Counted from the first letter of the stretch, positions 16,527-32,410 are shown. The stretch: DNA of 32,460 bases from a virus (IMGVR_UViG_3300025732_000161:1-32460); one strand, 5' to 3'. Notes: generated by a model from the sequence alone, not told the origin. Numbers and translations are program-made.

Positions 16527-17174
16527 TCACACGGAAGGAGTTTGGTTAGTATCGCCTTGATTATTATACCACTTCTCTTCTTTCCAAGTCAAGTTTTTTT
16601 GTAGTTGTCTATCAAATACCATCAAATATCTATGTTTACGACTTCTTTCTCTCCATTCACCTTCAGAACCTTTTACTTTACCTCGTGAATGTTTAGTTCC
16701 GTCTGAATAGTAGAAATCTTTTTTTGAATCTGTAAGACCGTAATACTTAAAGTTACAAGCCCGATAAATTGTACCACTATGAAAGTCATTATCAGCATAT
16801 GAGAGGATTGCTTTGACTTCAGTATCCTTTCGCAGTTGTCTAATCGCTTTTGAAACGAACCAAGAAGTGATATTATACTCGCTCTGTTGAGTTTGCGGAT
16901 GAATACAGAGTCTTGAGAGTTCAAAGAGTCCTTGTTGCTCATTTCTTTCAAGTCCAAAAGCGCCTTTTGCAATTTCTGGAACTGGTAGTCCTGTGAAAAT
17001 CACGACCCCCTTTAATCCACCAATATTTAGAGGTGAGAACTCATTTCTTTGAAACAATCCATAATTCCAACCACTTTTGAAACTTTTTGAAATATCTTTA
17101 AGATAATGATATTGAAGTAAAAGTTCCTCTGCTTGCTTTTTGGAAACTACATCAATATAAAAATCAGATTTCAT
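16527..17174 (-). CDS. Mom-like DNA adenine-modification protein (GNAT-type fold)
   Basis: This 215-residue protein resembles phage Mu Mom, which adds a methylcarbamoyl group to adenine in phage DNA and so blocks many restriction enzymes. Visible family features in order are GLKGVVIFTGLP (residues about 53-64), FELSRLCIHP (84-93), ITSWFVSKAIRQL (102-114), ILSYADNDFHSGTIYRACNF (123-142) and the C-terminal basic KHRYLMVF (180-187). The ELSR strand, the SYAD strand and the GTIY-N motif are those I associate with the Mom family. The start overlaps the stop of the 57-aa gene (ATGA), so the two are translationally coupled. It is the last gene before a strong terminator in a sigma70-promoter cassette. 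Anti-restriction is the likely role, by inference. An unrelated GNAT-like acetyltransferase is the main alternative. Confidence 0.78.
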   Translation of the reverse strand: MKSDFYIDVVSKKQAEELLLQYHYLKDISKSFKSGWNYGLFQRNEFSPLNIGGLKGVVIFTGLPVPEIAKGAFGLERNEQQGLFELSRLCIHPQTQQSEYNITSWFVSKAIRQLRKDTEVKAILSYADNDFHSGTIYRACNFKYYGLTDSKKDFYYSDGTKHSRGKVKGSEGEWRERSRKHRYLMVFDRQLQKNLTWKEEKWYNNQGDTNQTPSV

Positions 17175-18358: not shown

Positions 18359-19384
18359 TCAAACAAAACCAATCCGTTTTAAATGAGTTGTTATGAAGGT
18401 ACTTATATCGACAGTTGCTGCTCCGTTTGCAATTTGACTTGGTGTTGGTAATGAATTTCCTGGCGGAATTAAACGAGGATCCCCTATGTACTCTTGAATT
18501 TGTTCATGATCATACGTATTAACACCAATATACAAACATAAAGATCTCCCTATTCCAAAAGGCTCTAATGAATCTATAAAATCTATAGCAATTTGTCTTC
18601 TTTCACTAGTACCTCTAGTACACATTAAAAATTCAGTAACAATTCCAGAAGAAACGAATAAAGTTGGAGATCCATCAGTATAAATTTCATTTTGTTGCGC
18701 TGTACTTGAAAAGTCATTAAATGCTCTACCTGAATCATACGGAACACCAAATGCATTTTTAGTCATAACTACAGTTTCAGGATTAGAGTCCACTAGACCA
18801 TCAAAAGCATTAAGACCAGCACTATCTAAAGAAACACAAGCACGTATACAAGAAGTCGCAATTCCAACATTATTGATATATGAGGTGTTAGTACAAAGTA
18901 ATGTTGCTAAATGTGCTCCTGCGCTATGACCAAAAACTGCAATTCTATCTGGATCTCCTCCATAATCTTGAATGTTATCTCTGACCCATTTTAAAGCATT
19001 TGCAACATCTTTTATATGTGTTGGGTGTTTTACTCTATTTACATCCCAACTTACATAATCATCATTTCCAGATGCAACCCAAGCTGTAGTAATTCCAAAT
19101 GGTCTACTCAATCTATAATTAATACTCACATAAATGCAGCCTAACTCATTAAAAAATTTAGGTTTATAAGCATCATATTGATTTTTGTCTCCAAGAACCC
19201 AAGCGCCGCCATGAATCATAAAAATGACTGGTTTTTTTACGGGAACGTTTGGTCCTTCATTAAAATGGTAAACATTCAAATCAATAGAAGGTTTTAATTC
19301 ATCAAAATTATTCAACCAAGATACAAAACTATAAGCAATTCCCACACTATTAGGAGTGTTACTCATTATAATTGATACCGTCAT
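18359..19384 (-). CDS. Alpha/beta-hydrolase (HSL/BD-FAE-like putative esterase) in the tail gene cluster
   Basis: This 341-residue protein has the alpha/beta-hydrolase layout of hormone-sensitive-lipase or BD-FAE type esterases: VIFMIHGGAWVLGDK with the HGGAW oxyanion motif (residues 58-62), INYRLS (88-93), DVANALKWVRDNIQDYGGDPDRIAVFGHSAGAH region with nucleophile Ser154 in GHSAG, and a C-terminal DHEQI with candidate catalytic His293. The usual acidic residue after the sixth strand is not obvious; the strand SPTLFVSSGIV is followed by Glu251 in TEFL. There is no signal peptide. The ribosome site AGGAG lies nine bases before the ATG, and the gene is one base after the fibre-like gene. I infer carbohydrate or acyl-ester removal from the host surface, perhaps on the virion. 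A metabolic esterase cannot be excluded. Confidence 0.82.
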   Translation of the reverse strand: MTVSIIMSNTPNSVGIAYSFVSWLNNFDELKPSIDLNVYHFNEGPNVPVKKPVIFMIHGGAWVLGDKNQYDAYKPKFFNELGCIYVSINYRLSRPFGITTAWVASGNDDYVSWDVNRVKHPTHIKDVANALKWVRDNIQDYGGDPDRIAVFGHSAGAHLATLLCTNTSYINNVGIATSCIRACVSLDSAGLNAFDGLVDSNPETVVMTKNAFGVPYDSGRAFNDFSSTAQQNEIYTDGSPTLFVSSGIVTEFLMCTRGTSERRQIAIDFIDSLEPFGIGRSLCLYIGVNTYDHEQIQEYIGDPRLIPPGNSLPTPSQIANGAATVDISTFITTHLKRIGFV

Positions 19385-20077: not shown

Positions 20078-20782
20078 TCATTTATTAATACTGTAAATTG
20101 AATTATCCCCAGGATAGTCTTCTATATTTGTTCCCTCATACTCTACGATTAATTTTTCTCCATCTTTTCTCTCACCATTAACCATAAAATAACAATCAAT
20201 ATTTGCACCTGTTCCTGACTTAATAATTATTCTTTTCCCCCATTCAATTTTTTCAACAATTAAATCTTGAGAATACCCTATTTGCGTAAGGGTAACTGTA
20301 ATACTTTCTGGGTCTACAAGACCAAACCAATAACCAGGAAGATTTATTATATTAGAATCTTTGAGTCTTCCACGATAATAAACTCCAGATTCTGGGCCTT
20401 CCAAACAAACGTGGCGAAGTCTATGCCCAGTTTTTGTAGGATGTGGAATATCAAATGGTTTCCTAGATGTTAAAGTAATTCCACTAGCAGTAACCTGATT
20501 AGCAAAAACATTTCCACTAAAGTTAGTAGCATTTGCCTCCACATTAAACGTGGGAATTGGACCAGTACTTCCTTCTAAAGTAACGATAGATGTACTAGTA
20601 CCATTTAAATGCATATAAACATAATCAGCAGGAGAAGCAGTTGTGTTTGCAAGGACCATAGAGACATCATCAAGATTAAAAGACCCCTCAAAAGGTTCTA
20701 CAGAAAAATCATCATTATCTCTAAACTCAATTGGTGTACCTGGTCCAGCAAAAGTTCCATATTTTTCAAATGTAAACGCCAT
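20078..20782 (-). CDS. Tail-fibre-type protein with HPTK-G...CLEGPE domain (paralogue 1), 234 aa
   Basis: This 234-residue protein begins MAFTFEKYGTFAGPGTPIEF, has a beta-rich middle with NATNFSGNVFANQVTASGI, and a C-terminal domain (about 110-225) with DIPHPTKTGHRLRHVCLEGP, GVYYRGRL, LPGYWFGLVD, and SITVTLTQIG. I know this type of domain from the C-terminal parts of phage tail-fibre proteins, where it lies near the chaperone or fibre end. The same domain occurs in the 220-aa protein upstream, so the two are tandem paralogues. The gene starts where its neighbour ends, with the stop and start sharing a base, and only a weak AAAGGA ribosome site precedes it. A baseplate or short-fibre structural role is likely; partner and position in the tail are not known. 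Confidence 0.78.
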   Translation of the reverse strand: MAFTFEKYGTFAGPGTPIEFRDNDDFSVEPFEGSFNLDDVSMVLANTTASPADYVYMHLNGTSTSIVTLEGSTGPIPTFNVEANATNFSGNVFANQVTASGITLTSRKPFDIPHPTKTGHRLRHVCLEGPESGVYYRGRLKDSNIINLPGYWFGLVDPESITVTLTQIGYSQDLIVEKIEWGKRIIIKSGTGANIDCYFMVNGERKDGEKLIVEYEGTNIEDYPGDNSIYSINK

Positions 20783-21444
20783 TATCCTTTAATCTCCGTA
20801 ATCAATTTGGGTACATCTTTTCTAGTTCCAAAAATATGATAAAAACAATTTATAGGTATTCCTGGTTTTGCTTGCAGATAAACTTTATTATTCACAATTC
20901 TTTTTACAATAATATCTTGATGAGCACCAATAGGAGTAAGTGATACCGTTATTGAATCTGCATCTACTAAGTTTATCCAGTATTCTGGAAGTTCAATTTC
21001 AGTATTATTTAATAATCTTCCTCGAACATATACGCCGTTTTCAGGACCTTCAAGACAAGTATGAACTAATTTTTTACCTGGTTTTGTTGGATGATCAATT
21101 ACAAAATTCTTAATTGATGCTTGAAGAATTTTTGTTCTTACAACTTTTGCTTCAATATAAGTTGATTTAAGTAGCAAATCAACCCTCACAAAACTTTGAA
21201 ATCTTGAATAAAGTCTACACCATAAAGAATATAATGGAACTGTTTTAGCATCAGGATTTTTAAGTTGTCCTACCATTAAAGTTGCTTTGCAACTATTATG
21301 ATCAGTCGCTGCTCCAGTTTGAAATGGACCCTCAACAAAAGCAGACCCATTTATTTTTGCGGGACCAATTCCAAGTGCTTTGGGTGTTCCAGCACCACAC
21401 ATTATTTGCCCACCAGAAGCTACATCATCCATTAAAAATGCCAT
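20782..21444 (-). CDS. Tail-fibre-type protein with HPTK-G...CLEGPE domain (paralogue 2), 220 aa
   Basis: This 220-residue protein carries the same C-terminal domain as its downstream neighbour (FVIDHPTKPGKKLVHTCLEG, GVYVRGRL, LPEYWINLVD, SITVSLTPIGAHQD). The N-terminus differs. DVASGGQIMCGAGTPKALG and GPAKINGSAFVEGPFQTG are Gly-rich and could belong to a PAAR-like spike-tip fold, but I see no clear metal-binding triad, so this is weak. The ribosome site AAGGAG lies seven bases before the ATG. It follows directly after the needle-like beta-helix gene. If the N-terminus were PAAR-like it could cap the needle. The downstream start shares its last base. It is a structural protein of the baseplate region; the detailed role is open. 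Confidence 0.76.
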   Translation of the reverse strand: MAFLMDDVASGGQIMCGAGTPKALGIGPAKINGSAFVEGPFQTGAATDHNSCKATLMVGQLKNPDAKTVPLYSLWCRLYSRFQSFVRVDLLLKSTYIEAKVVRTKILQASIKNFVIDHPTKPGKKLVHTCLEGPENGVYVRGRLLNNTEIELPEYWINLVDADSITVSLTPIGAHQDIIVKRIVNNKVYLQAKPGIPINCFYHIFGTRKDVPKLITEIKG

Positions 21445-22158: not shown

Positions 22159-25100
22159 TTAAGTTTGTTCTGTTGTGGACTGAGGAGTTCCTGGAATATT
22201 AAGTCTTGGATCATTACTTCTAATATCAGTACCAGATCTCTGAATTGCGCTTGGAGGTGTAGTAACTTTCGCAGTGATACTTTCTTGAAGAGTTGCATAA
22301 ACTCTTACCTGAGTACCAGCAGTCTTATAATATCCCGCATATGGAACACCTTGATCATAGTAAACAGCACCATAATATGCTCTTCCATCAACATATCCAG
22401 TTTGCTTAAGACCAACAAGATCAGTAACTTGAATAAGTTTTTCTGGGGGAAGAAGTGGATCTCTAACAACACGAAATACTGGTCTAAACGATGCGTTTAC
22501 TCCAGTTTCAGATAAAATAGTAATTGATGGATAAACGTCAAATCCAATACCAGGATTTAGTACATTAACAGAATTAATTCTACCAAAGGAATCACAATTG
22601 TAAGAAAGTTCTGCTCCATTGCTTGGAACAATTGTTATTTGATCCTCTCCACATCTATAATTAATACCGGGATCTTCTACAATAATATCATCTAAAACAA
22701 GCGTAACTGGATATCCAGGACCAAGAGGTTGAGGAGGAAGATATCCATTACCAGGATCATTTACAACAACTTTTTCAACTACACCCTTACCTCCTATCTT
22801 TTTAGCACAAGGAGGAGGAATCAATATTGCGGAAACAGCCATTGGATTAACTGTCCAAGGAGTTTTATTTGTTTGTTCAAGAAAAATATCTTTACTAATA
22901 TAAAGTGCAACTCCTCTGGGGTTATCTTCATTACTACCACTTGGGTTTTTTACATTTTCAAGTTGAATTGAAATATCATATTTTCCAGAGGTTGCATTAA
23001 AAGTATATTGAACTTTATTTCCCACAAAATCAGATGTAGTATAAATTTCTTTCCCACCTATAGTTAATTTTGCTATATTATCTGCTTGAAAATTAAATTT
23101 ATACGTACCATCTTCAGGGAAATTTACATTTTTCCAATTTAATGTTACTGTTCCAACTTCATTTACTGGAGTTGGAGAAACTGAAAAATCATTCATAAAT
23201 GTACTCCACCTTTTATCAACATATCCAGTTAAAGGAGGTCCACTATAAGTAACACCATTTTTAGAAGAACTCTGAGATGTTGGAGGTGCAGCAGAAGATC
23301 CTTGTTTTACACCACTAATAGTAATCTGTATATTTTTATCATCACCATCAGCGTCTCTAAGTGATAATGTATTAGAACTTCCTGTAATTGGTATAGGACC
23401 TCTCGCCGCAGGATCAGCGCCTATAATTTCAATAGGTCCATATGTCTTACCTCCAGTAAAAGTTCCAGATTCTTTTATAGTTTCTTCTGTTGGGGCGCTT
23501 AATCCCAAAACTCCACCTAAACCATATTCAGTTCTTTGAAATTTAACTTTACCAGAATCTGAAGGTATTATAACCTCTTTAGCAGCCAATCCGGCAATAT
23601 AAGTAGCATCATTAATATCCATCACGAAAGACACTTCTCCGGATCCAGTTCCGTCAACCTGAAGATAATAACTAGATCCTTTTTGAATAAACTTTGCACT
23701 TATACTTGATGGGGAGGAAGAAGGAGAAGATCTCCAATCTTGAGTACTAAAAATTTTAGTATCTATTATAGTAATACCTTCTACCAATTCATTAGAAACT
23801 TCAACGGTAATTATATGTCTACCTTTTGTAAGGTATTTTTTTGTTATTTTTGGATTATTTACGCTAGATGAATCAAGTTTTGATACTTCCTGCCCATCTA
23901 TAAGTAGTCTTCCATTATTATCTCTTGTACCTTTGACTCCATAATATCCAGCATAAGGAAGATCGATTTCCCAAGAATTAGAAAATGTCGTTCCAGAACT
24001 ATCACTTCCAGGAGTATTTAAAGGAAGAACAGGTGATATTGCATACCTATTCATAAATTTACTCCAAACACTGGTTTGACTTTCAGATGAATTTGAAGAT
24101 GTCGAAAATGTTTGTAATAATGACAATGCATTGTCATTAAGTGGCAATCCTTGTCTTTGCGCTTCTTCTTGAATTTGTGTAGCGGTTAATCCATCAGCAA
24201 GTGCGTTGTTAATTGCTGTAGCCCCCAATATATCTGGATTTGTATCATTTGGACCTTGTACAAATTTATATTGAGGATATATAACGGGATACCATTTTTG
24301 GGTAGATGTAGGAAATCTGGTAGTCCAAATTGGATTTGGTGGACATTTACCTTCTTGCTCTGGTAGTTTTTCCTGAGGAACAGGCGGAATAGGTGCCTCA
24401 ATGAGCATTGAAACTCCCATAGGATTTTCATTCCAAGATTTTGGAGAAATAATCTTTTCCCCAGTTGTAGTTGTAGTTGTTGAAGATGAAGAGGAATTAA
24501 TAACAGTAATCTCAATATTTTTATCATCACCATCAGCATCTCTAAGTGCTAACTTATTAGAACTTCCAGAAATTGGTAGTGGACCTTTTGCCGCAGGATT
24601 TGCGCCTAAGATTTGAATAGGTCCATATGTCTTACCTCCAGTAAAAGTTCCAGATCCCTTATCACTATCTTTCTCTTTTGAAGGATCTCTTTTTAATGAA
24701 ATATTTCCACCATCTGATGGAATAACAACTTCTTTAGCTGCAAGTCCAGCAATATTAGGATTATCATCAACATCCATAGAAAATGATACTGTCCCACTTC
24801 CAGTTCCATCAACTTGGAGATAATATCCAGATCCTTTTTGAATAAACTTTGCACTTACATTTGAAGTTTTTGGTGCATTTTCTTCTACTGGAGAATTTAA
24901 TAAATCAACTCTAATGATATGATTTCCTTCTTGAATTGTTTTCTGAAGGGGAGAGGGGTTATCTTTAAATGATTTTAAATTTCCAACTAAATTATCATCA
25001 ATATAAACTTTAGCGGTATTGTCGCATACTCCTCTAAAAATATATTCTCCACTTATTGGAAATTGGTACTCCCATTCAATCTTAAATGTTTTTCCTGCTT

Positions 25101-25923
25101 CATCAGTACCCGTAGTATCAGATGGTTTAACTGGAGATACTGCATACAAATTCATAAATTCTCCCCATCTAGAATCAGTTACTGAATATGAATTTTGTGT
25201 AGCATATTCTTGCCCCAACACAGTAATTCTATCTGGTTGCCCCTTTCTTGTAGTCCAGAAAGGTTTTTCTAGTGCCTTTTGAAATTTTTCTATTTCCCTT
25301 CTAATTGGATCTTCACCTATTTTTGTATAAAGATCTGGTTCCCAGGGACCTAAATCTTGACCCCCTTCTCCATACTTACGTCCATAACCAACATCAGTGT
25401 CTTCGCATAATTCATATTCTTCAAAATCTTCTTCACCTTCATAAACTTCTGTTTCATCTGCAGTTTCTCCTAATACTGCATTAAGGACTGCACCATTACC
25501 AAATTGACAATCATCTTTTGCAGCGACTATAGGAGGATATTGATATCCATTACCACCAGTTACAATATCAACAGCGAGCAAAGAACCATCCTTACCAACT
25601 ACAGGATTGCCGGTAGCACCTACTCCACCTCCGCCAAAAAATTGAATCCTTGGAGGTCCACATTCTTTATACTGTTGTATTCCACCACACTCATCACTTT
25701 TCTTTGGAGAAAGATCCTGAGGTGTTAAGTTATTAACTTCGTTAATATTCAAATACTGAAGATTATTGTCACCATCCTTAAAAATAAAAGTTGTCCCTGG
25801 ATTATCTTTAACATAATCATTTGCCTGACATATAGTGACTCCATCAACATACCCCAAAGTCGGATCTATGTATCCGACTTTAATATCATCAGTAGTTGGA
25901 GTACCAAATAAATTAAAAGACAT
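22159..25923 (-). CDS. Large modular baseplate-region structural protein, 1254 aa
   Basis: The protein contains internal repeats. Three related modules begin with W-(x)2-FMN-(x)-SP signatures (residues about 253-345, 620-715, 905-1010) and contain beta-strand runs such as GEYIFRGVCDNTAKVYIDD, like PA14-type carbohydrate-binding beta-sandwiches. Two nearly identical modules (about 357-475 and 742-869) share SAKFIQKGS, YYLQVDGTGSG, IAGLAAKEV, GTFTGGKTYGPI and LRDADGDDKNI. The ends also match each other: GYVDG and GNGY-PP motifs occur near the N- and C-termini. A Ser/Thr run (about 476-487) links modules. No enzyme motif is seen. It follows gp5 by 26 bases with a late box between them, so it probably forms part of the baseplate or a fibre-attached glycan-binding arm. 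PA14-like assignment is inference from pattern only. Confidence 0.8.
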   Translation of the reverse strand: MSFNLFGTPTTDDIKVGYIDPTLGYVDGVTICQANDYVKDNPGTTFIFKDGDNNLQYLNINEVNNLTPQDLSPKKSDECGGIQQYKECGPPRIQFFGGGGVGATGNPVVGKDGSLLAVDIVTGGNGYQYPPIVAAKDDCQFGNGAVLNAVLGETADETEVYEGEEDFEEYELCEDTDVGYGRKYGEGGQDLGPWEPDLYTKIGEDPIRREIEKFQKALEKPFWTTRKGQPDRITVLGQEYATQNSYSVTDSRWGEFMNLYAVSPVKPSDTTGTDEAGKTFKIEWEYQFPISGEYIFRGVCDNTAKVYIDDNLVGNLKSFKDNPSPLQKTIQEGNHIIRVDLLNSPVEENAPKTSNVSAKFIQKGSGYYLQVDGTGSGTVSFSMDVDDNPNIAGLAAKEVVIPSDGGNISLKRDPSKEKDSDKGSGTFTGGKTYGPIQILGANPAAKGPLPISGSSNKLALRDADGDDKNIEITVINSSSSSTTTTTTGEKIISPKSWNENPMGVSMLIEAPIPPVPQEKLPEQEGKCPPNPIWTTRFPTSTQKWYPVIYPQYKFVQGPNDTNPDILGATAINNALADGLTATQIQEEAQRQGLPLNDNALSLLQTFSTSSNSSESQTSVWSKFMNRYAISPVLPLNTPGSDSSGTTFSNSWEIDLPYAGYYGVKGTRDNNGRLLIDGQEVSKLDSSSVNNPKITKKYLTKGRHIITVEVSNELVEGITIIDTKIFSTQDWRSSPSSSPSSISAKFIQKGSSYYLQVDGTGSGEVSFVMDINDATYIAGLAAKEVIIPSDSGKVKFQRTEYGLGGVLGLSAPTEETIKESGTFTGGKTYGPIEIIGADPAARGPIPITGSSNTLSLRDADGDDKNIQITISGVKQGSSAAPPTSQSSSKNGVTYSGPPLTGYVDKRWSTFMNDFSVSPTPVNEVGTVTLNWKNVNFPEDGTYKFNFQADNIAKLTIGGKEIYTTSDFVGNKVQYTFNATSGKYDISIQLENVKNPSGSNEDNPRGVALYISKDIFLEQTNKTPWTVNPMAVSAILIPPPCAKKIGGKGVVEKVVVNDPGNGYLPPQPLGPGYPVTLVLDDIIVEDPGINYRCGEDQITIVPSNGAELSYNCDSFGRINSVNVLNPGIGFDVYPSITILSETGVNASFRPVFRVVRDPLLPPEKLIQVTDLVGLKQTGYVDGRAYYGAVYYDQGVPYAGYYKTAGTQVRVYATLQESITAKVTTPPSAIQRSGTDIRSNDPRLNIPGTPQSTTEQT
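23317..23700 (-). repeat. Internal duplicated module, second copy
   Basis: This encodes residues about 742-869 of the 1254-aa protein. It is closely similar in DNA and protein to the copy at 24499-24855; long stretches such as the one encoding LRDADGDDKNI are nearly identical. It points to a recent intragenic duplication. Confidence 0.8.
24499..24855 (-). repeat. Internal duplicated module, first copy
   Basis: This encodes residues about 357-475 of the 1254-aa protein and matches the copy at 23317-23700. The second copy is slightly longer because of an insertion between IPSD and GTFTGG. Confidence 0.8.
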
Positions 25924-25943: not shown

Positions 25944-25951
25944 TATTTATT
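25944..25951 (-). promoter_or_regulatory. Late promoter box AATAAATA
   Basis: AATAAATA on the minus strand differs from the T4 late consensus at one base. It overlaps the gp5 stop and precedes the 1254-aa start by about 20 bases. Confidence 0.6.
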
Positions 25952-27728
25952 AGTAAAGTGTAACCTGTCCACTTTCAACTGCTTGAACTGCTTCTTGTCT
26001 AGTTCCAAAATCAATATCAGGTTGATTCTGACTTGGTTGAGCAAATGGAGTTTGAGTTGTAGCAGGTGCTGTAGTTGGTTGTTGCGCTGCTTTATCAACT
26101 TCTGCAGGTCTTGGTTGCTGAGGTTCTTCAGCAGCACCGCTACCATTTTGTAATGTATAATAATCAGATGCAGGACAATTGGGTTTTAAATCACATCCAA
26201 AAATATTTAACGTAATATTTTCAAAACTTAATGCAGAAGTTATACTTCCACTAATTCCTCCAATTAAGTCTTTTGTCTCTGTAATAGATCCTATTTCAGA
26301 AAGAGTATCATTTAAAAAATTATTTACATTATCCAAAACACTATTAACTGTAGTAGTCATTTCATCCATATTGAGAGAAATAAGATCACCAGTTAATTTT
26401 TCAACAGAACATATTGGAGTAATTGGAGTTTGTGGTATTTCATTTCCCTGAGGAGTTGTCTTTTTAGGAGGTAATTCCTTTTTAAGTTGTTGATCTAATA
26501 ATCCCTGTACTTGTTCTCCTAATCCATTTACAATTTTACCAAATAAACAAGATATTAATTCAGTAATTTTTGTTTTAATATCAAAATACCTTTGCCTCAT
26601 ATTTGGAGGCATAAGTTCTACCGTTTTTGCCAGTCCTTTATTAATTTGCTTTAAAGTATACTCCATAATTTTATCAAAAACAACTTTCATATACTTAGCA
26701 ATAACACCAGAAAACTTAGAAATTAAAGTCTGAACATCAGGAAGATTACTTGAAACTGCATCAACATAACTTTCAGCAGCATTTAAAACTTTATCAATAT
26801 CTTTTGTTAAATTTTCTAATTCAGTTTGAATCGCTTTTAATGCCGATTTTGGAACATCGCAAGGAGACATTAAGACAGTTTTTCTTTGATAATAATCATT
26901 TCTTGTTACATCTGCTTTTGATTGTTCGTGAACTGCATCAACATTTTCTTTTGTTGCCCCAGGTTGAGATGGAGAAGTTGGAGAATTTGCTTCCTTACAT
27001 CTTGCCGAGATACCAGAAGAAACTGCTTGTTGAACAAAATTATCTTTTTCAGTCCCAGTTAATCCTCTTGCCTCTGCTTCAGCAAGAGCACTTTGTTGGT
27101 CTTGAAATTGAGTTGAAGTTAAAGATTTATCTGCTCTTAATCCAAACTCATTTGTCGCTACTCCAGGTGGTGGAGGAGCACATTCCTCAGATTGTTCTTT
27201 GGACTTTGGTTTATTAATTACAAGTCCATCATCAGGAACCTTTGCATTTGGATCCTTATTTCCATCTGCAGGAGTTGCATATCCACTTGTTGCAAGACTT
27301 CCTGGTTGAGTATTTGTTACACGACTATCGCCAATTTTTGTCGAAAGTTCTGTTTGGGCATTATTCCCAAGAACTCCCATAATCACAGGAACTTGTTGTT
27401 CCTGCCCATCAAGGAAGAAACCAAAGACAAACATTCCTTGCCTTAGGTTCGGAGTTGCACCTGCATTTGTTTGACCACCGCCAGCGGTCACAGGATACAT
27501 CAACTGAGCCCAAGGAAGTTGATCTGAAGGTACTTCAGTTTCTCCCTGATCGTGAAGACCTATGATGCGAACTTTATAACGACGACCCCAACCAGGAACT
27601 TGATCCTTACTTTCAAATTTTCCGGCGAGCATATTATCTCGCCAAGTTGAATCACTGGCGATTTGTCCAATCCACCAGTTAAAACTTGCACCAAGAAAAC
27701 CAGAATTAAATAAAGTACCTTCAGTCAT
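25950..27728 (-). CDS. gp5: gp5-like baseplate hub/spike protein with N-terminal OB fold
   Basis: This 592-residue protein has an N-terminal OB-fold domain typical of gp5/VgrG hubs: GWGRRYKVRIIGLHD (residues 46-60), LPWAQLMYPVTAGGG (71-85), LRQGMFVFGFFLDGQEQQVPVIMGVLG (about 95-121). No T4-type lysozyme domain is visible in the middle; instead there is a Gln/Ser/Pro-rich linker, a long helical region (LKAIQTELENLTKDIDKVLN, about 290-310, then further helices), and a Pro/Gln-rich end. T4 gp5 is 575 residues but includes a lysozyme, so the similar length here is differently spent. The start overlaps the cp12 stop by one base (TAATG). It is encoded right after the gp27-like gene and cp12. It is expected to form the central spike with the hub protein. 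Confidence 0.82.
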   Translation of the reverse strand: MTEGTLFNSGFLGASFNWWIGQIASDSTWRDNMLAGKFESKDQVPGWGRRYKVRIIGLHDQGETEVPSDQLPWAQLMYPVTAGGGQTNAGATPNLRQGMFVFGFFLDGQEQQVPVIMGVLGNNAQTELSTKIGDSRVTNTQPGSLATSGYATPADGNKDPNAKVPDDGLVINKPKSKEQSEECAPPPPGVATNEFGLRADKSLTSTQFQDQQSALAEAEARGLTGTEKDNFVQQAVSSGISARCKEANSPTSPSQPGATKENVDAVHEQSKADVTRNDYYQRKTVLMSPCDVPKSALKAIQTELENLTKDIDKVLNAAESYVDAVSSNLPDVQTLISKFSGVIAKYMKVVFDKIMEYTLKQINKGLAKTVELMPPNMRQRYFDIKTKITELISCLFGKIVNGLGEQVQGLLDQQLKKELPPKKTTPQGNEIPQTPITPICSVEKLTGDLISLNMDEMTTTVNSVLDNVNNFLNDTLSEIGSITETKDLIGGISGSITSALSFENITLNIFGCDLKPNCPASDYYTLQNGSGAAEEPQQPRPAEVDKAAQQPTTAPATTQTPFAQPSQNQPDIDFGTRQEAVQAVESGQVTLY

Positions 27729-27977: not shown

Positions 27978-29372
27978 TTATATTGCATTATAATTTGGAG
28001 TTCCTTTTTTGCCCAGAGAATCCCTGACTAATGTTAATTTAGTATATCCACCATTAGATAAACTTATATAATGACATAACTCCGCAATCGTATAAAATCC
28101 ACCAAACTTTTCATTAAAATCTTGAGTATCTTTATTTGATAGTTCTGGAGAATCTACAAAAATCAAATCTCCTGCGTGCAAACTAAAGTCTGCGGTAATA
28201 GTAATAGTAACCTGAGTTGAGAAGAATTGATTATATCTCATTACAGATTGGTTTAAAATATTTTTAGGATCAAAATTTTCTTCTTTTGATTTTTGAATTT
28301 GTTGTTGAGAATCTCCAGTAGGTAATGACCCTTTATCAATCAACATATATTGAGTTCTAGAAAAATCTTTATTTGCTTCTGTTCGATTAAACTCTTTATT
28401 GTATTTTGGAAGTTCTTTTCCTGCCTTTTGCAAATTACTTTCTGCACCTGGTTTTCCACTATCAGCACTTGCATTTGGAGTAATGACTTCATAATAACAA
28501 CTAAAAGGATCAAACAATATTGTTCTGGTTGAATAAGTTCCAATTTCTAATTTAGATTGAACATTTCCAGTTGCAGTATCAACATTATGTTCCAATACTT
28601 TTCCAGAATATCCAGCAGGTATTGTTGCACCTCTACCATCTGGAGTTTGGTTATTTACAAAACTTTTATATTCTTTTTTTCCACCACTGGGATCAGTTTC
28701 CGACAAAAGACCTTCTATTGATTTAAACTTAAATCCATCAGAAGTTTCAAAGAAGAAAAATCCAGCACTATTACCTTTTGCTTTTTGAGTTTTTGGTACA
28801 GACTTTTTAGCAAGCCAAAGTATTGCATAAAAAGGTCTACGATTATTTCCTATAAAATTATAATTATTTTCAGTTTCTTCTATATCTAATTTCTTTTTTG
28901 TTCCAAGATAACTTTGATCTGTTAATATCTTTTGAATATGGTCAGAAATCTTTCCATCAAATCTTGTATTTAAAACTGTTTTATAATTAAGAATTGATTC
29001 CTTGGAAACCAAATTAAGAGTTACTGCAGTTTTTTGCGTATCTTGTTTAAGAGGATTAATACTATCAATATACAAATCAACAGAAATCTCAACCCCATTT
29101 GGATCTGAAATTTTGAGTTGAGTTTTTTCAGTTCCAACTAAAGGCATACCTTCAATTAATGTTTTTAAACTCCCCTCAACATCAACACTTTTACCAGTTT
29201 CAACATAAATCAAATTAGATTTAATAGTTGGATTCAGAACACTTTCATAATAATATAAATCTGTTATAATAGTAGATATGTCTTTTTTGTTCTTACCGTC
29301 ATTAGATGTGATAAGACACTGTGCAATATTATAGTCTCTAGATTGTGCAGCAGTAATTGGAGTATTAGCCAT
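27978..29372 (-). CDS. gp27: gp27-like baseplate hub protein
   Basis: This 464-residue protein begins MANTPITAAQSRDYNIAQCL. It has features of gp27/VgrG-type tail hub proteins: DISTIITDLYYYESVLNPTI (residues about 30-50), then IDSINPLKQDTQKTAVTLNL, SDHIQKILTDQSYLG, FYAILWLAKKSV (about 180-191) and GFFFFETSDGFKFKSIEGLL. The latter two are the paired tube-like domain strands that I associate with cyanophage hub proteins. The end, FGGFYTIAELCHYISLSNGG followed by TKLTLVRDSLG, also fits the family. T4 gp27 is 391 residues, so this is longer. It is encoded between the 1003-aa virion protein and cp12/gp5, so it would form the trimeric hub that holds the gp5 spike. It lies 26 bases after the preceding gene. 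Confidence 0.78.
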   Translation of the reverse strand: MANTPITAAQSRDYNIAQCLITSNDGKNKKDISTIITDLYYYESVLNPTIKSNLIYVETGKSVDVEGSLKTLIEGMPLVGTEKTQLKISDPNGVEISVDLYIDSINPLKQDTQKTAVTLNLVSKESILNYKTVLNTRFDGKISDHIQKILTDQSYLGTKKKLDIEETENNYNFIGNNRRPFYAILWLAKKSVPKTQKAKGNSAGFFFFETSDGFKFKSIEGLLSETDPSGGKKEYKSFVNNQTPDGRGATIPAGYSGKVLEHNVDTATGNVQSKLEIGTYSTRTILFDPFSCYYEVITPNASADSGKPGAESNLQKAGKELPKYNKEFNRTEANKDFSRTQYMLIDKGSLPTGDSQQQIQKSKEENFDPKNILNQSVMRYNQFFSTQVTITITADFSLHAGDLIFVDSPELSNKDTQDFNEKFGGFYTIAELCHYISLSNGGYTKLTLVRDSLGKKGTPNYNAI

Positions 29373-29392: not shown

Positions 29393-29400
29393 TATTTACT
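29393..29400 (-). promoter_or_regulatory. Possible late promoter box AGTAAATA
   Basis: AGTAAATA on the minus strand overlaps the end of the 1003-aa gene and precedes the gp27-like start by about 20 bases. It differs from the late consensus at two bases. Confidence 0.35.
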
Positions 29401-32400
29401 ACATATAAAGACCATCTTGAGATGGATCTTCACCAGATCCACCCATTCCAAATCCGCCACCACCTATAGGAATAATAGAAGGAGGAATTACAGTTATTGT
29501 TGATTGTTCTGGAACATAGTATGTATTATCTTCTTCTGTTTCTGGGAATCCGTCTTCAGTATATTGACTTAAAATAGAGATTAAAGATTCTGCAGCATTT
29601 TTTCTTTGGGAAATTGTCTCTACCTGATTAATAATATCATAGAATTTTATTCCAAAAAGTTTTACCGAGTCAGCATCAACAACATATTCTCCTGGATGAG
29701 TTAAGACTTTTTGAGTTTTATCTACATATCCTCCATCGTGTGCTTGTTTTAATGGGCCGGGACTAGAACCGGAAGAAGCCATATGAATAGTATATCCTTC
29801 ACCAGTCCCAAGATAATTTTTTGCAGCAACACTCAAATCAAGCATATGATTACCAGAGTGTCCGCTAACTCCAGGACCAACATCATTAACTCGTATTACT
29901 GCTTTTTTCCCATTTGGTGATGTTACTATAACATTAAAAGGAGATTTAAGAGTTCTTCCTCCAGGGAATCCTCTTGCGGGGACAGTCATTGATAATGGTA
30001 GTCTTGAAAGTAAAGGTGGAAATGCAGCAGCAGAAAAAACATTTGACCTATATCCTTCTCCAGTAGACGTTGCGGGTAATCCATCTTTTGTTTTATATCC
30101 ACTAGCATTTATTCCTCCTAAAGATGGATCATAATATGTTGTTTTAGCACCAGAAGCCAATAATTCTCCAGGTTTTCCAGTACCAGATCCACTAATAGTA
30201 GATGCATTATTTAAAACGTCTTTTTCTCTTTTTGACTTTAAATTAGTATAATCTTCATCAGTTCCGTGGAGTTTATCTTTTCCTCCTCTATAACCACCAT
30301 AGAAATAAAATCCATATTTACTTGCAAGTTGTGCAAGTTTTTCATTAATACCACCTTTTGATTTGCTATAATCATTAGCAACACCAAGAATTCTAACTCT
30401 TGCTCCTATAGATTTTAAATACTTTAACTGCTCTTCAACAGAAGTATAATCACCAGTAGAGTTAGCGATACCTGTTGATAGATCAACCAAAGCACCCTTT
30501 AGTGCATCACCTCTTGCTTTTAATATTGCAAGAACAGCAGCAGAACTTCTACCAACCATAGTATCTCCACTTTCAGATCCATTACCAGACCTTCCAGCAA
30601 ATCCGTGAGCAATACTATCACCAATTACAAACTGCGCTTCCCCACCAAACTGTGCTAATGGATTTTCGCCACCAGAAGTTCCACCGGAAGATGGTTTTGA
30701 TTCTTTTTCTCCTGAAGAAGTGCTCTTCTTTAACTTTAATTGATTAACTAAATCGGATAAAATTGAATTTATAGGACTCATAAGAGAGTCTTTTGCTAAA
30801 CGAGATGCCCAATTGGTTATATCAACAGGTCCAGTTTTATCACTAATAACACTATCAGTTCCAGGAATTTTAATCGTATCCAACATATCATTAATAAAAT
30901 TATTCATTCCTACACCAACTGCTTTAAAATCACTCTCTGCAGGTTTATCTCCAAATAAACTTTTAATACTTATCTCCAGTAATGGATGCAAAAATTTAGA
31001 GTCAGAAGCAATATCATATGAAGACTTTAAGTACTCATATGAGTTTAAAAATTGAGGATCAAATGGATTGGGATAAAAGGTTTGAATTTTTGGTACTTTA
31101 CTTCCCTCATAAGGTATAAGTCCGCCCACATCAGATCCAGGTTGTAGTGGTGCAGTTGGAATAGCAACAACTCTTTTTGCTTTTACTCTTTTTCCAACAG
31201 TTCGGGTTGCTGCTCCAACATATTCACCACCACGGGTCACAGCACCCCCAGAAGCATACCCCATAGACTTTACTGCTTGATTACCAAACAAACTTCCAAA
31301 AGATCCTTGTTGTTTTGCAAGCATCCCAAAACTCAGGGTATTTACAATCTGCCTTAACTGTTCTCTTATTCTTGCATCAAGTTTTCCAAGATTTTCTCTT
31401 TGGTTTTTTATCCCTTCACTATCACCGGTCAAAGACATTATACCAAAATTAATTAACTCTACTGCGTATCTAAATGGTGCTCCAATAATATCAAGTAAAG
31501 TTCCAACACCAGTAGATAAGAAGTTGTAAAACCTTAATCCAGGAATAGCAATTGTATTATAAAATCCAACTTTCAAAAATCTCATAAAGGGGTTTGGATC
31601 TTTCTGTGCTTCTGCTAGTCCAGCATATGCATCACGCTCCACCTTCGTTGTAAATTTACGAAGTTGGAACATCCCCTCGCCCAACGCAGAAGATATAAGA
31701 CCAACGCCAGCAACAACTCCTGCTGCAGCACGAGCACTAATTTGACCAGCGGTTCTTAATGCCGCTTGCTGTACTGCTCTTTGTGCTCCTTGTTGAACTA
31801 CCCTATCTTTTACGACATCAACCGCTTCCATTTGAACATTTGATCTAGAATCGCTTTCAAGTAAATCAGAAAACAACATACCAGCAATAAACATAGAGTT
31901 CATTACTTTGTTTGCTAGATCCAAAGTTCTATCATAATTTTTTAAACCAGCATCACCACCTAAAAGTTTTGCTTGCTGTTTTCCAAAATCAACAACTTGG
32001 TATACCCTATCTACAAAAGTAACAAAAGAATTCAATAACATTCCAGAGAAGTTTAATATAAAATCACTAAACTTCATCGCACCAATCAATACTCCCTTGA
32101 GTTTTGGTAGGTGAGGTAATAGTTTAATTACAAAAGCACCAAATAAAACTTTAAACAAAAAGTTTTTTATAACATCCAAAAATCCAAGTTTTGGAACTGA
32201 AACTTTATTGGATACCTGCTTTTCATTCGAGTCTCCCCTATCTTCCAGTTTCTTTTCTTTTTGCTCAAATCTTTTTCTTTCCGTCAATAATTTCTGACGT
32301 TTAATTGAAACATCCTTAATTTTATATTTTTCCCCAACAAGTTTCTCTACACGAACAACTTGCTTTTTAATAATGTTTAAGTTTATAAATCTTGGTTTAA

Positions 32401-32410
32401 TATACGCCAT
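29399..32410 (-). CDS. Large virion protein with SGNH-hydrolase-like and RlpA-like domains (baseplate hub/tape-measure region)
   Basis: This is a 1003-residue protein. Residues 20-60 are a charged coiled coil; 75-135 include hydrophobic helices (FLFKVLFGAFVIKLLPHLP); 200-245 is Ala-rich. From about 590 there is an SGNH-like domain: VIGDSIAHG with candidate Ser599, GIAN, VRILGVANDY, and D712-x-x-H715 in KDKLHGTDEDY. From about 750 to 880 an RlpA-like double-psi beta-barrel follows (TTYYDPSLGG, VTSPNGKKAVIRVNDVGPG with Asp843, MLDLSVAA). The tail has GGYVDKTQKVLTHPGEYVVD, as in phage tape-measure proteins. SGNH enzymes remove acyl groups and RlpA acts on peptidoglycan, so cell-wall passage during DNA injection is a reasonable inference. 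It precedes the hub gene. The ribosome site AGAGG lies eight bases before the ATG. A tape measure proper is the main alternative name. Confidence 0.75.
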   Translation of the reverse strand: MAYIKPRFINLNIIKKQVVRVEKLVGEKYKIKDVSIKRQKLLTERKRFEQKEKKLEDRGDSNEKQVSNKVSVPKLGFLDVIKNFLFKVLFGAFVIKLLPHLPKLKGVLIGAMKFSDFILNFSGMLLNSFVTFVDRVYQVVDFGKQQAKLLGGDAGLKNYDRTLDLANKVMNSMFIAGMLFSDLLESDSRSNVQMEAVDVVKDRVVQQGAQRAVQQAALRTAGQISARAAAGVVAGVGLISSALGEGMFQLRKFTTKVERDAYAGLAEAQKDPNPFMRFLKVGFYNTIAIPGLRFYNFLSTGVGTLLDIIGAPFRYAVELINFGIMSLTGDSEGIKNQRENLGKLDARIREQLRQIVNTLSFGMLAKQQGSFGSLFGNQAVKSMGYASGGAVTRGGEYVGAATRTVGKRVKAKRVVAIPTAPLQPGSDVGGLIPYEGSKVPKIQTFYPNPFDPQFLNSYEYLKSSYDIASDSKFLHPLLEISIKSLFGDKPAESDFKAVGVGMNNFINDMLDTIKIPGTDSVISDKTGPVDITNWASRLAKDSLMSPINSILSDLVNQLKLKKSTSSGEKESKPSSGGTSGGENPLAQFGGEAQFVIGDSIAHGFAGRSGNGSESGDTMVGRSSAAVLAILKARGDALKGALVDLSTGIANSTGDYTSVEEQLKYLKSIGARVRILGVANDYSKSKGGINEKLAQLASKYGFYFYGGYRGGKDKLHGTDEDYTNLKSKREKDVLNNASTISGSGTGKPGELLASGAKTTYYDPSLGGINASGYKTKDGLPATSTGEGYRSNVFSAAAFPPLLSRLPLSMTVPARGFPGGRTLKSPFNVIVTSPNGKKAVIRVNDVGPGVSGHSGNHMLDLSVAAKNYLGTGEGYTIHMASSGSSPGPLKQAHDGGYVDKTQKVLTHPGEYVVDADSVKLFGIKFYDIINQVETISQRKNAAESLISILSQYTEDGFPETEEDNTYYVPEQSTITVIPPSIIPIGGGGFGMGGSGEDPSQDGLYM

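Follow-up and report, generated by a model that had tools for sequence, protein, structure and literature searches.

A cyanomyophage hub-region protein as a probable holder of interchangeable cell-wall enzymes

A 1003-residue protein encoded near one end of the viral sequence IMGVR_UViG_3300025732_000161 (the window, i.e. the whole stretch of DNA that was analysed, 32 460 nucleotides) is best explained, with a probability of roughly three in four, as a tool holder of the hub/tape-measure region of a cyanomyophage that carries interchangeable cell-wall enzymes for entry. The domains of this protein (X2), a slot with fixed joints, exchanges of modules within and between X2 and its paralogue X1, and the sharing of modules with cultured cyanophages were established by computation. 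X2 would be the second of two tandem paralogous virion proteins of the baseplate-hub/tape-measure region, with an N-terminal scaffold and a C-terminal domain that would hold the enzyme modules: a SGNH-like hydrolase in slot A and an exchangeable wall-degrading cassette in slot B.

The open reading frame marked by a first-pass annotation is real and intact; it is read on the minus strand, from 32410 to 29399. Full-length relatives of X2 are present in IMG/VR. The protein, its conserved parts and its neighbours are as follows.

29399–32410, minus strand: X2, 1003-residue predicted virion protein of the hub/tape-measure region (matches to PHROG 35997 and 19273)
31136–32410, minus strand: N-terminal scaffold, X2 residues 1–425, conserved and common to X1 (from HMM N and X1/X2 homology)
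29531–29734, minus strand: C-terminal domain, X2 residues 893–960, 'LTHPGEYVVDADSVKLFG...FYDIIN', conserved and also in X1 (from HMM C and the X1 alignment)
27978–29372, minus strand: tail protein, phrog_350, neighbour of X2, conserved in Kyanoviridae
25950–27728, minus strand: gp5-like hub protein with an OB domain (Gp5_OB the sole Pfam match, under the curated cut-off)

HMM N and HMM C are the profiles of the scaffold and of the C-terminal domain, respectively; HMM N matches both the X2 and the X1 open reading frames. X1 lies directly upstream of X2 in relatives, outside the window, and has the N-terminal scaffold and the C-terminal domain in common with it. Four hydrophobic segments were located in the X2 scaffold by a hydropathy scan (residues 80–98, 107–125, 224–242 and 302–320). 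The gene order in the window (X2, the phrog_350 tail protein, a small gene, gp5) matches the hub cluster of the Kyanoviridae/T4-like cyanomyophages; in cultured Kyanoviridae it is gp26–gp51–X1–X2–tail protein–gp5, some with extra small genes ahead of gp5, and isolates with this arrangement carry differing wall enzymes. Gene order and hydropathy thus support the earlier placing of the protein in a hub or tape-measure neighbourhood with N-terminal hydrophobic helices. The S-CREM1/2 counterpart of the phrog_350 protein has been called 'baseplate central spike' (PMC10665884). No lysozyme domain was detected by Pfam in the window gp5, as had been claimed for the T4-type domain. In P-SSM2 both X1 and X2 are short (529 and 516 residues, respectively) and neither has a Pfam match. 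A search of X2 against NCBIfam gave no match, and comparison of the whole X2 sequence with solved structures found nothing meaningful.

Three other minus-strand regions of the window were recorded. The first (22159–25923) encodes a 1254-residue 'virion structural protein' (phrog_32965 match), possibly a mosaic protein, with weaker matches to a family of major head proteins and to the C-terminal portion of a gp5 hub family (phrog_1922). Two adjacent paralogous proteins are encoded at 20078–21444 (phrog_28536 / phrog_17490). A 215-residue protein amid the tail genes (16527–17174) matches a family of Mom-like DNA modification proteins (1.4e-35) and has weak matches to HNH/homing endonuclease families.

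The first-pass annotation had assigned a SGNH-like and an RlpA-like domain to X2, and both assignments hold on motif conservation and confident AlphaFold models. S599, GIAN (residues 647–650), D712-x-x-H715, VNDVGP (841–846) and LDLS (857–860) all lie at the residues given by that annotation, and the invariance of the SGNH residues in eight sequences excludes chance. The SGNH-like domain comprises the following features.

30227–30655, minus strand: SGNH-like domain, X2 residues 586–728, with S599, G620, N650, D712 and H715 (from conservation, model, and fold and family matches)
30614–30616, minus strand: codon of Ser599, the predicted SGNH nucleophile, invariant in the alignments
30266–30277, minus strand: D712-x-x-H715 motif (SGNH block V), in which D712 never varies and H715 is kept outside the relatives L013/L014

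The motifs follow in the SGNH order: Ser of GDS (block I), Gly620 (block II), N650 (block III) and D712/H715 of DxxH (block V). G-D-S, G620, N650, D712 and H715 are invariant in the eight-sequence alignment, which takes in S-H38, a cultured phage, and a prophage of Helicobacter pametensis, at identities down to 39%. In an 18-sequence alignment there is no variation at S599, G620, N650 or D712 and very little at H715. L013/L014 have Asp in place of H715, and the distance from D to H is greater in L011, L017, L019, L021 and L022.

The SGNH and DPBB (see below) domains were modelled separately. For the SGNH region a confident alpha/beta model was obtained with AlphaFold2 (pLDDT 88.3, pTM 0.85), for which Foldseek returned no significant match in the PDB. 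Axe2, an SGNH esterase, had the best TM-score among the matches listed (TMq 0.56, E=0.15) but stood at rank 47, after many small GTPases whose alpha/beta topology is similar and whose rmsd is high; a Rab-like GTPase identity was rejected on the high rmsd and low TM-scores, the SGNH catalytic residues being conserved instead. In a viral library the list was headed by the homologue from S-H38, a protein annotated 'SGNH_hydrolase domain' and an 'Esterase' from a phage, with SGNH-annotated phage proteins at E=0.02 and above. Pfam Lipase_GDSL_2 matches two of the eight SGNH family members (best E=0.0026), and no SGNH family was matched by Pfam in X2 itself, where a sub-threshold DPBB_1 is the only match; the SGNH assignment is therefore based on conservation and structure. 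A sequence search with the SGNH profile against solved structures found nothing meaningful, hhalign of this profile with an approximate E. coli TesA sequence matched the GDS block alone, and no relative of the domain was found in a scan of bacterial genomes. The evidence for the predicted SGNH-like domain is good but indirect. As a guess, its substrate would be an ester on the wall or on an associated polysaccharide.

In a Mu-like prophage of H. pametensis (L032:4399–7101) the same SGNH domain and a Phage_lysozyme domain occur in one tail-region protein, which points to action on the wall. The window itself encodes a second possible esterase in its tail-gene region (18359–19384, minus strand; 341 residues, match to phrog_3341 'esterase' with E=1.9e-18).

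The domain that follows the SGNH-like domain in X2 is a barrel.

29756–30175, minus strand: RlpA-like double-psi beta-barrel (DPBB), X2 residues ~746–885 (from Pfam DPBB_1, the AlphaFold2 model, Foldseek and modules elsewhere)
29882–29884, minus strand: codon of Asp843 (in NDVGP), the putative catalytic acid of the barrel, with no variation across 11 DPBB modules

Pfam DPBB_1 matches X2 with E=7e-4 and 20.2 bits, below the curated cut-off of 28.8. The AlphaFold2 model (pLDDT 85.7, pTM 0.83) has the double-psi beta-barrel fold, and its best PDB match by Foldseek is the RlpA-like PA4485 (4avr, E=1.9e-4); kiwellins, weakly expansins, and the baseplate chain 8kea_A of cyanophage A-1(L) (E=7e-4) are also matched. 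Structure prediction thus gave the proposed fold with a solved counterpart for the barrel, and for the SGNH region a confident model with no significant one. The catalytic residues of RlpA are the Asp of ND.GP and the His of AAH. D843 falls opposite the Asp of the PA4485 motif INDRGP, and D858 is, like D843, invariant in the 11 modules; the 'AAH' histidine is absent, the barrel reading AAF or G depending on the alignment. The comparison of catalytic residues therefore upheld the SGNH set and the barrel Asp and failed for the RlpA-type histidine and for H715 in L013/L014. With the Asp kept and the His absent, the DPBB is a relative of RlpA and at most a putative RlpA enzyme. Since this histidine is missing and some SGNH domains have an altered H715 or D-to-H spacing, inactivity or a different mode of action is possible for some modules.

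Exchange was observed at the position of the barrel.

29750–30218, minus strand: exchangeable cassette slot (slot B), X2 residues ~731–887, replaced as a block between sister phages

Slot B lies between the SGNH domain and the conserved C-terminal domain; in aligned relatives the SGNH domain and the flanks are conserved and the segment after SGNH is not. Between the window and L002, DNA identity is 93.5% up to 30219; nothing in the slot can be aligned (DPBB versus Phage_lysozyme2), and from 29749 onward identity is again high, at 92.6%. The flanks of L048 and L050 are 97.4 and 93.7% identical in DNA around SLT_3 and Amidase_2, respectively, and those of L016 and L018 are 97.3 and 95.1% identical around Hydrolase_2 and Phage_lysozyme2 (the L050 and L018 types were identified through their sequence similarity to cassettes with a Pfam match). 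The joints coincide in all three sister pairs, just after SGNH and just before the C-terminal domain.

Nine module types were counted in slot B among 22 X2 proteins. Pfam recognized Phage_lysozyme2 (L002, L014), Amidase_2 (L003), SLT_3 (L005, L048), Peptidase_M15_4 (L024), Hydrolase_2 (L016, just below the cut-off) and DPBB (window, L001); other members were typed by sequence similarity. There was no Pfam match for the L008/L011/L017 module, in which M15-like metal-ligand motifs can be made out by eye, for the L021/L022 module, which is lysozyme-like by eye, or for the L061 slot-B module. Every Pfam-recognized module is of a known or probable peptidoglycan-cleaving family. The X2 family carries recognized wall-hydrolase domains both in the window (DPBB) and in relatives (the other five), and the wall-breaching role proposed in the first-pass annotation appears probable from family membership. 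On a scaffold tree built without the slot, the nine states of the 22 proteins require at least 13 changes (shuffled-label mean 15.1); cassette type thus follows descent only weakly. Exchange reaches the SGNH slot as well: L061 branches among SGNH carriers, yet has lost SGNH and has Hydrolase_2 in its place.

The modules belong to a wider pool. X1 carries further wall enzymes in relatives, so X2 is unlikely to be the sole wall cutter. The M15_4 modules of L060 X1 and L024 X2 are 74% identical, and SLT_3 modules are shared between X1 and X2 at about 60% identity. L048 and L050, 97% identical nearby, differ in the X1 module and, independently, in the X2 slot; both paralogues therefore exchange modules. 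Modules are also shared with the isolates RB11-B (DPBB, 67%), S-H38 (M15_4, 54%; SGNH, 46%) and Bellamy (M15-like, 47–57%). DPBB modules 64–80% identical were found in nine proteins without any match to the rest of X2, and further loci were seen; the L021-type cassette likewise occurs in otherwise unrelated proteins (53–71% identical). In the cultured cyanophage S-CREM1 a stand-alone 'rare lipoprotein A' gene (L092:13224–13586) adjoins gp5 and is a possible free form of such a barrel.

It is unlikely that the modules are mainly binding or structural, with a DPBB that binds carbohydrate as expansins do, a degenerate SGNH domain, and an exchange that tunes recognition of the wall or surface. The missing RlpA-type histidine, the likeness of the barrel to kiwellins and weakly to expansins, and the loss of the SGNH histidine in L013/L014 would all suit such modules, but most of the alternative cassettes are classical enzymes (SLT_3, Phage_lysozyme2, Amidase_2, M15_4, Hydrolase_2) and the two barrel aspartates are invariant. 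Moreover, the DPBB-like baseplate chain comes from A-1(L), whose hub endoglucanase domain lysed cells (PMC10966104).

Somewhat less probable again is the proposal of the first-pass annotation that the SGNH and RlpA-like domains work together as one dedicated enzyme that breaches the wall in two steps, deacylating and then cleaving glycan in place of a gp5 lysozyme. Both domains do stand in one protein with largely intact catalytic motifs, and gp5 is without lysozyme. However, eight other module types take the place of the DPBB beside the same SGNH domain, the DPBB is found without SGNH in RB11-B and other hosts, and L061 is without SGNH. The DPBB being one of nine interchangeable cassettes, the partners of SGNH also include tail lysozymes, amidases, transglycosylases and peptidases, and the proposed partnership finds no support.

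We consider it very improbable that the cassettes serve lysis from within as endolysins, or are released from the structural protein for that purpose, rather than entry. Isolate homologues are frequently annotated 'endolysin', among them the tandem ORFs 208/209 of S-CREM2, syntenic with X1/X2, which are listed under lysis proteins (PMC10665884). The same pair was nevertheless found in purified virions by mass spectrometry (73 and 71 unique peptides, respectively; PMC10665884), and the modules belong to a protein of the baseplate hub cluster, where they are joined to a scaffold that has hydrophobic segments; a free endolysin was therefore rejected. By analogy with the S-CREM2 pair, X2 would be part of the virion. 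Another S-CREM2 virion protein, the hypothetical ORF124 (2668 residues, 450 unique peptides; PMC10665884, Table 3), would fit in size as a candidate tape measure for the 418-nm tail.

Chimeric assembly, to which the mostly metagenomic contigs with conserved flanks that supply the evidence for exchange are prone through mis-joins, deserves almost no credence as the source of cassette variation, as all analysed open reading frames read through in frame, most cassette types occur in more than one contig (L048/L049, L016/L025, L013/L014, five L008-type, L001/L040) and the cultured RB11-B, S-H38, Bellamy, S-SM1 and S-CREM1 vary likewise; it was rejected because independent contigs and isolates have the same cassettes.

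Photo_RC reaction-centre genes (psbA/psbD-type) are present on three of ten tested contigs of X2 relatives and point to cyanobacterial hosts; the virus probably infects photosynthetic bacteria.

In the preferred reading, that of a holder of interchangeable wall enzymes, X1 and X2 are most likely held in the tail hub and would present their enzymes to the wall once the tail contracts. A module would then open the host wall locally for the passage of DNA, taking over the job of the lysozyme absent from gp5. In-frame recombination at the fixed joints flanking slot B would swap the cutter as a unit, so that near-identical phages come to carry wall enzymes of different chemistry; the kind of wall-cutting chemistry may not matter, and cassettes could therefore replace each other if the joints fit. 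Cleavage of the wall at entry, the identity of the substrates and the cause of the exchange are inferred. The chances appear evenly balanced that X1 and X2 are a dedicated tool-holder system, i.e. paired virion hub proteins with standard joints in which the chemistry of the entry wall cutter (glycosidase, transglycosylase, amidase, peptidase, DPBB) has repeatedly been replaced from a gene pool common to distant cyanophages, with host-wall variation or host inhibitors as the probable pressure.

Rapid diversification of phage fibres is the classic arms-race story, and the wall-cutting step is usually treated as fixed. Sister cyanophages with unrelated predicted wall-cutting chemistries in one socket make it testable whether the peptidoglycan step limits which cells a phage enters, and the slot B family is a natural catalogue of interchangeable wall-cutting modules. 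Exchange also explains the inconsistent annotation of homologous cyanophage tail genes (hypothetical, endolysin, peptidase, transglycosylase).

Wall hydrolases in tail proteins are already known, as in the tape-measure protein Tmp of mycobacteriophage TM4, which has a wall-hydrolase motif (PMC1796659), and so is domain shuffling in endolysins and fibres (Smug et al. 2023; PMC10684548). A literature search of open-licence papers turned up no account of paired hub proteins whose fixed slots take nine interchangeable module types. The X2 barrel is like the RlpA-like DPBB proteins (PA4485, P. aeruginosa RlpA) in its fold, the Asp of ND.GP and the DLS motif; it differs in lacking the AAH histidine, in an insert, in an extra conserved G-H..N-H-M and in its fusion into a phage tail protein. 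The SGNH domain has the GDS block I, block II Gly, GxxN and DxxH of the SGNH/GDSL hydrolases in order and an alpha/beta fold, but is small, has no significant PDB match and varies in D–H spacing in some relatives. Smug et al. highlight endolysins, fibres and spikes, and mention tape-measure proteins just as a class with sequence mosaicism. As in slot B, the shuffling involves enzymatic domains of phage proteins that face the host, exchanged recently and in frame, whereas the sections consulted describe no fixed slot for wall enzymes in a pair of virion hub proteins. The baseplate hub gp15 of A-1(L) has endoglucanase and peptidase domains that lyse host Anabaena cells, and mutation of conserved residues lowers lysis (PMC10966104). 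It shares with X2 the setting of a cyanomyophage baseplate hub and several wall-active domains (both predicted for X2), but is a different hub protein of another phage lineage with fixed domains, for which the sections consulted describe no slot exchange. Like the virion-associated peptidoglycan hydrolases TM4 Tmp and T4 gp5, X2 would be a structural tail protein with a predicted wall-cutting domain that acts at entry; unlike them, X1 and X2 are two tandem paralogous scaffolds with slots, nine module types and fixed joints, even between phages that are 93–97% identical.
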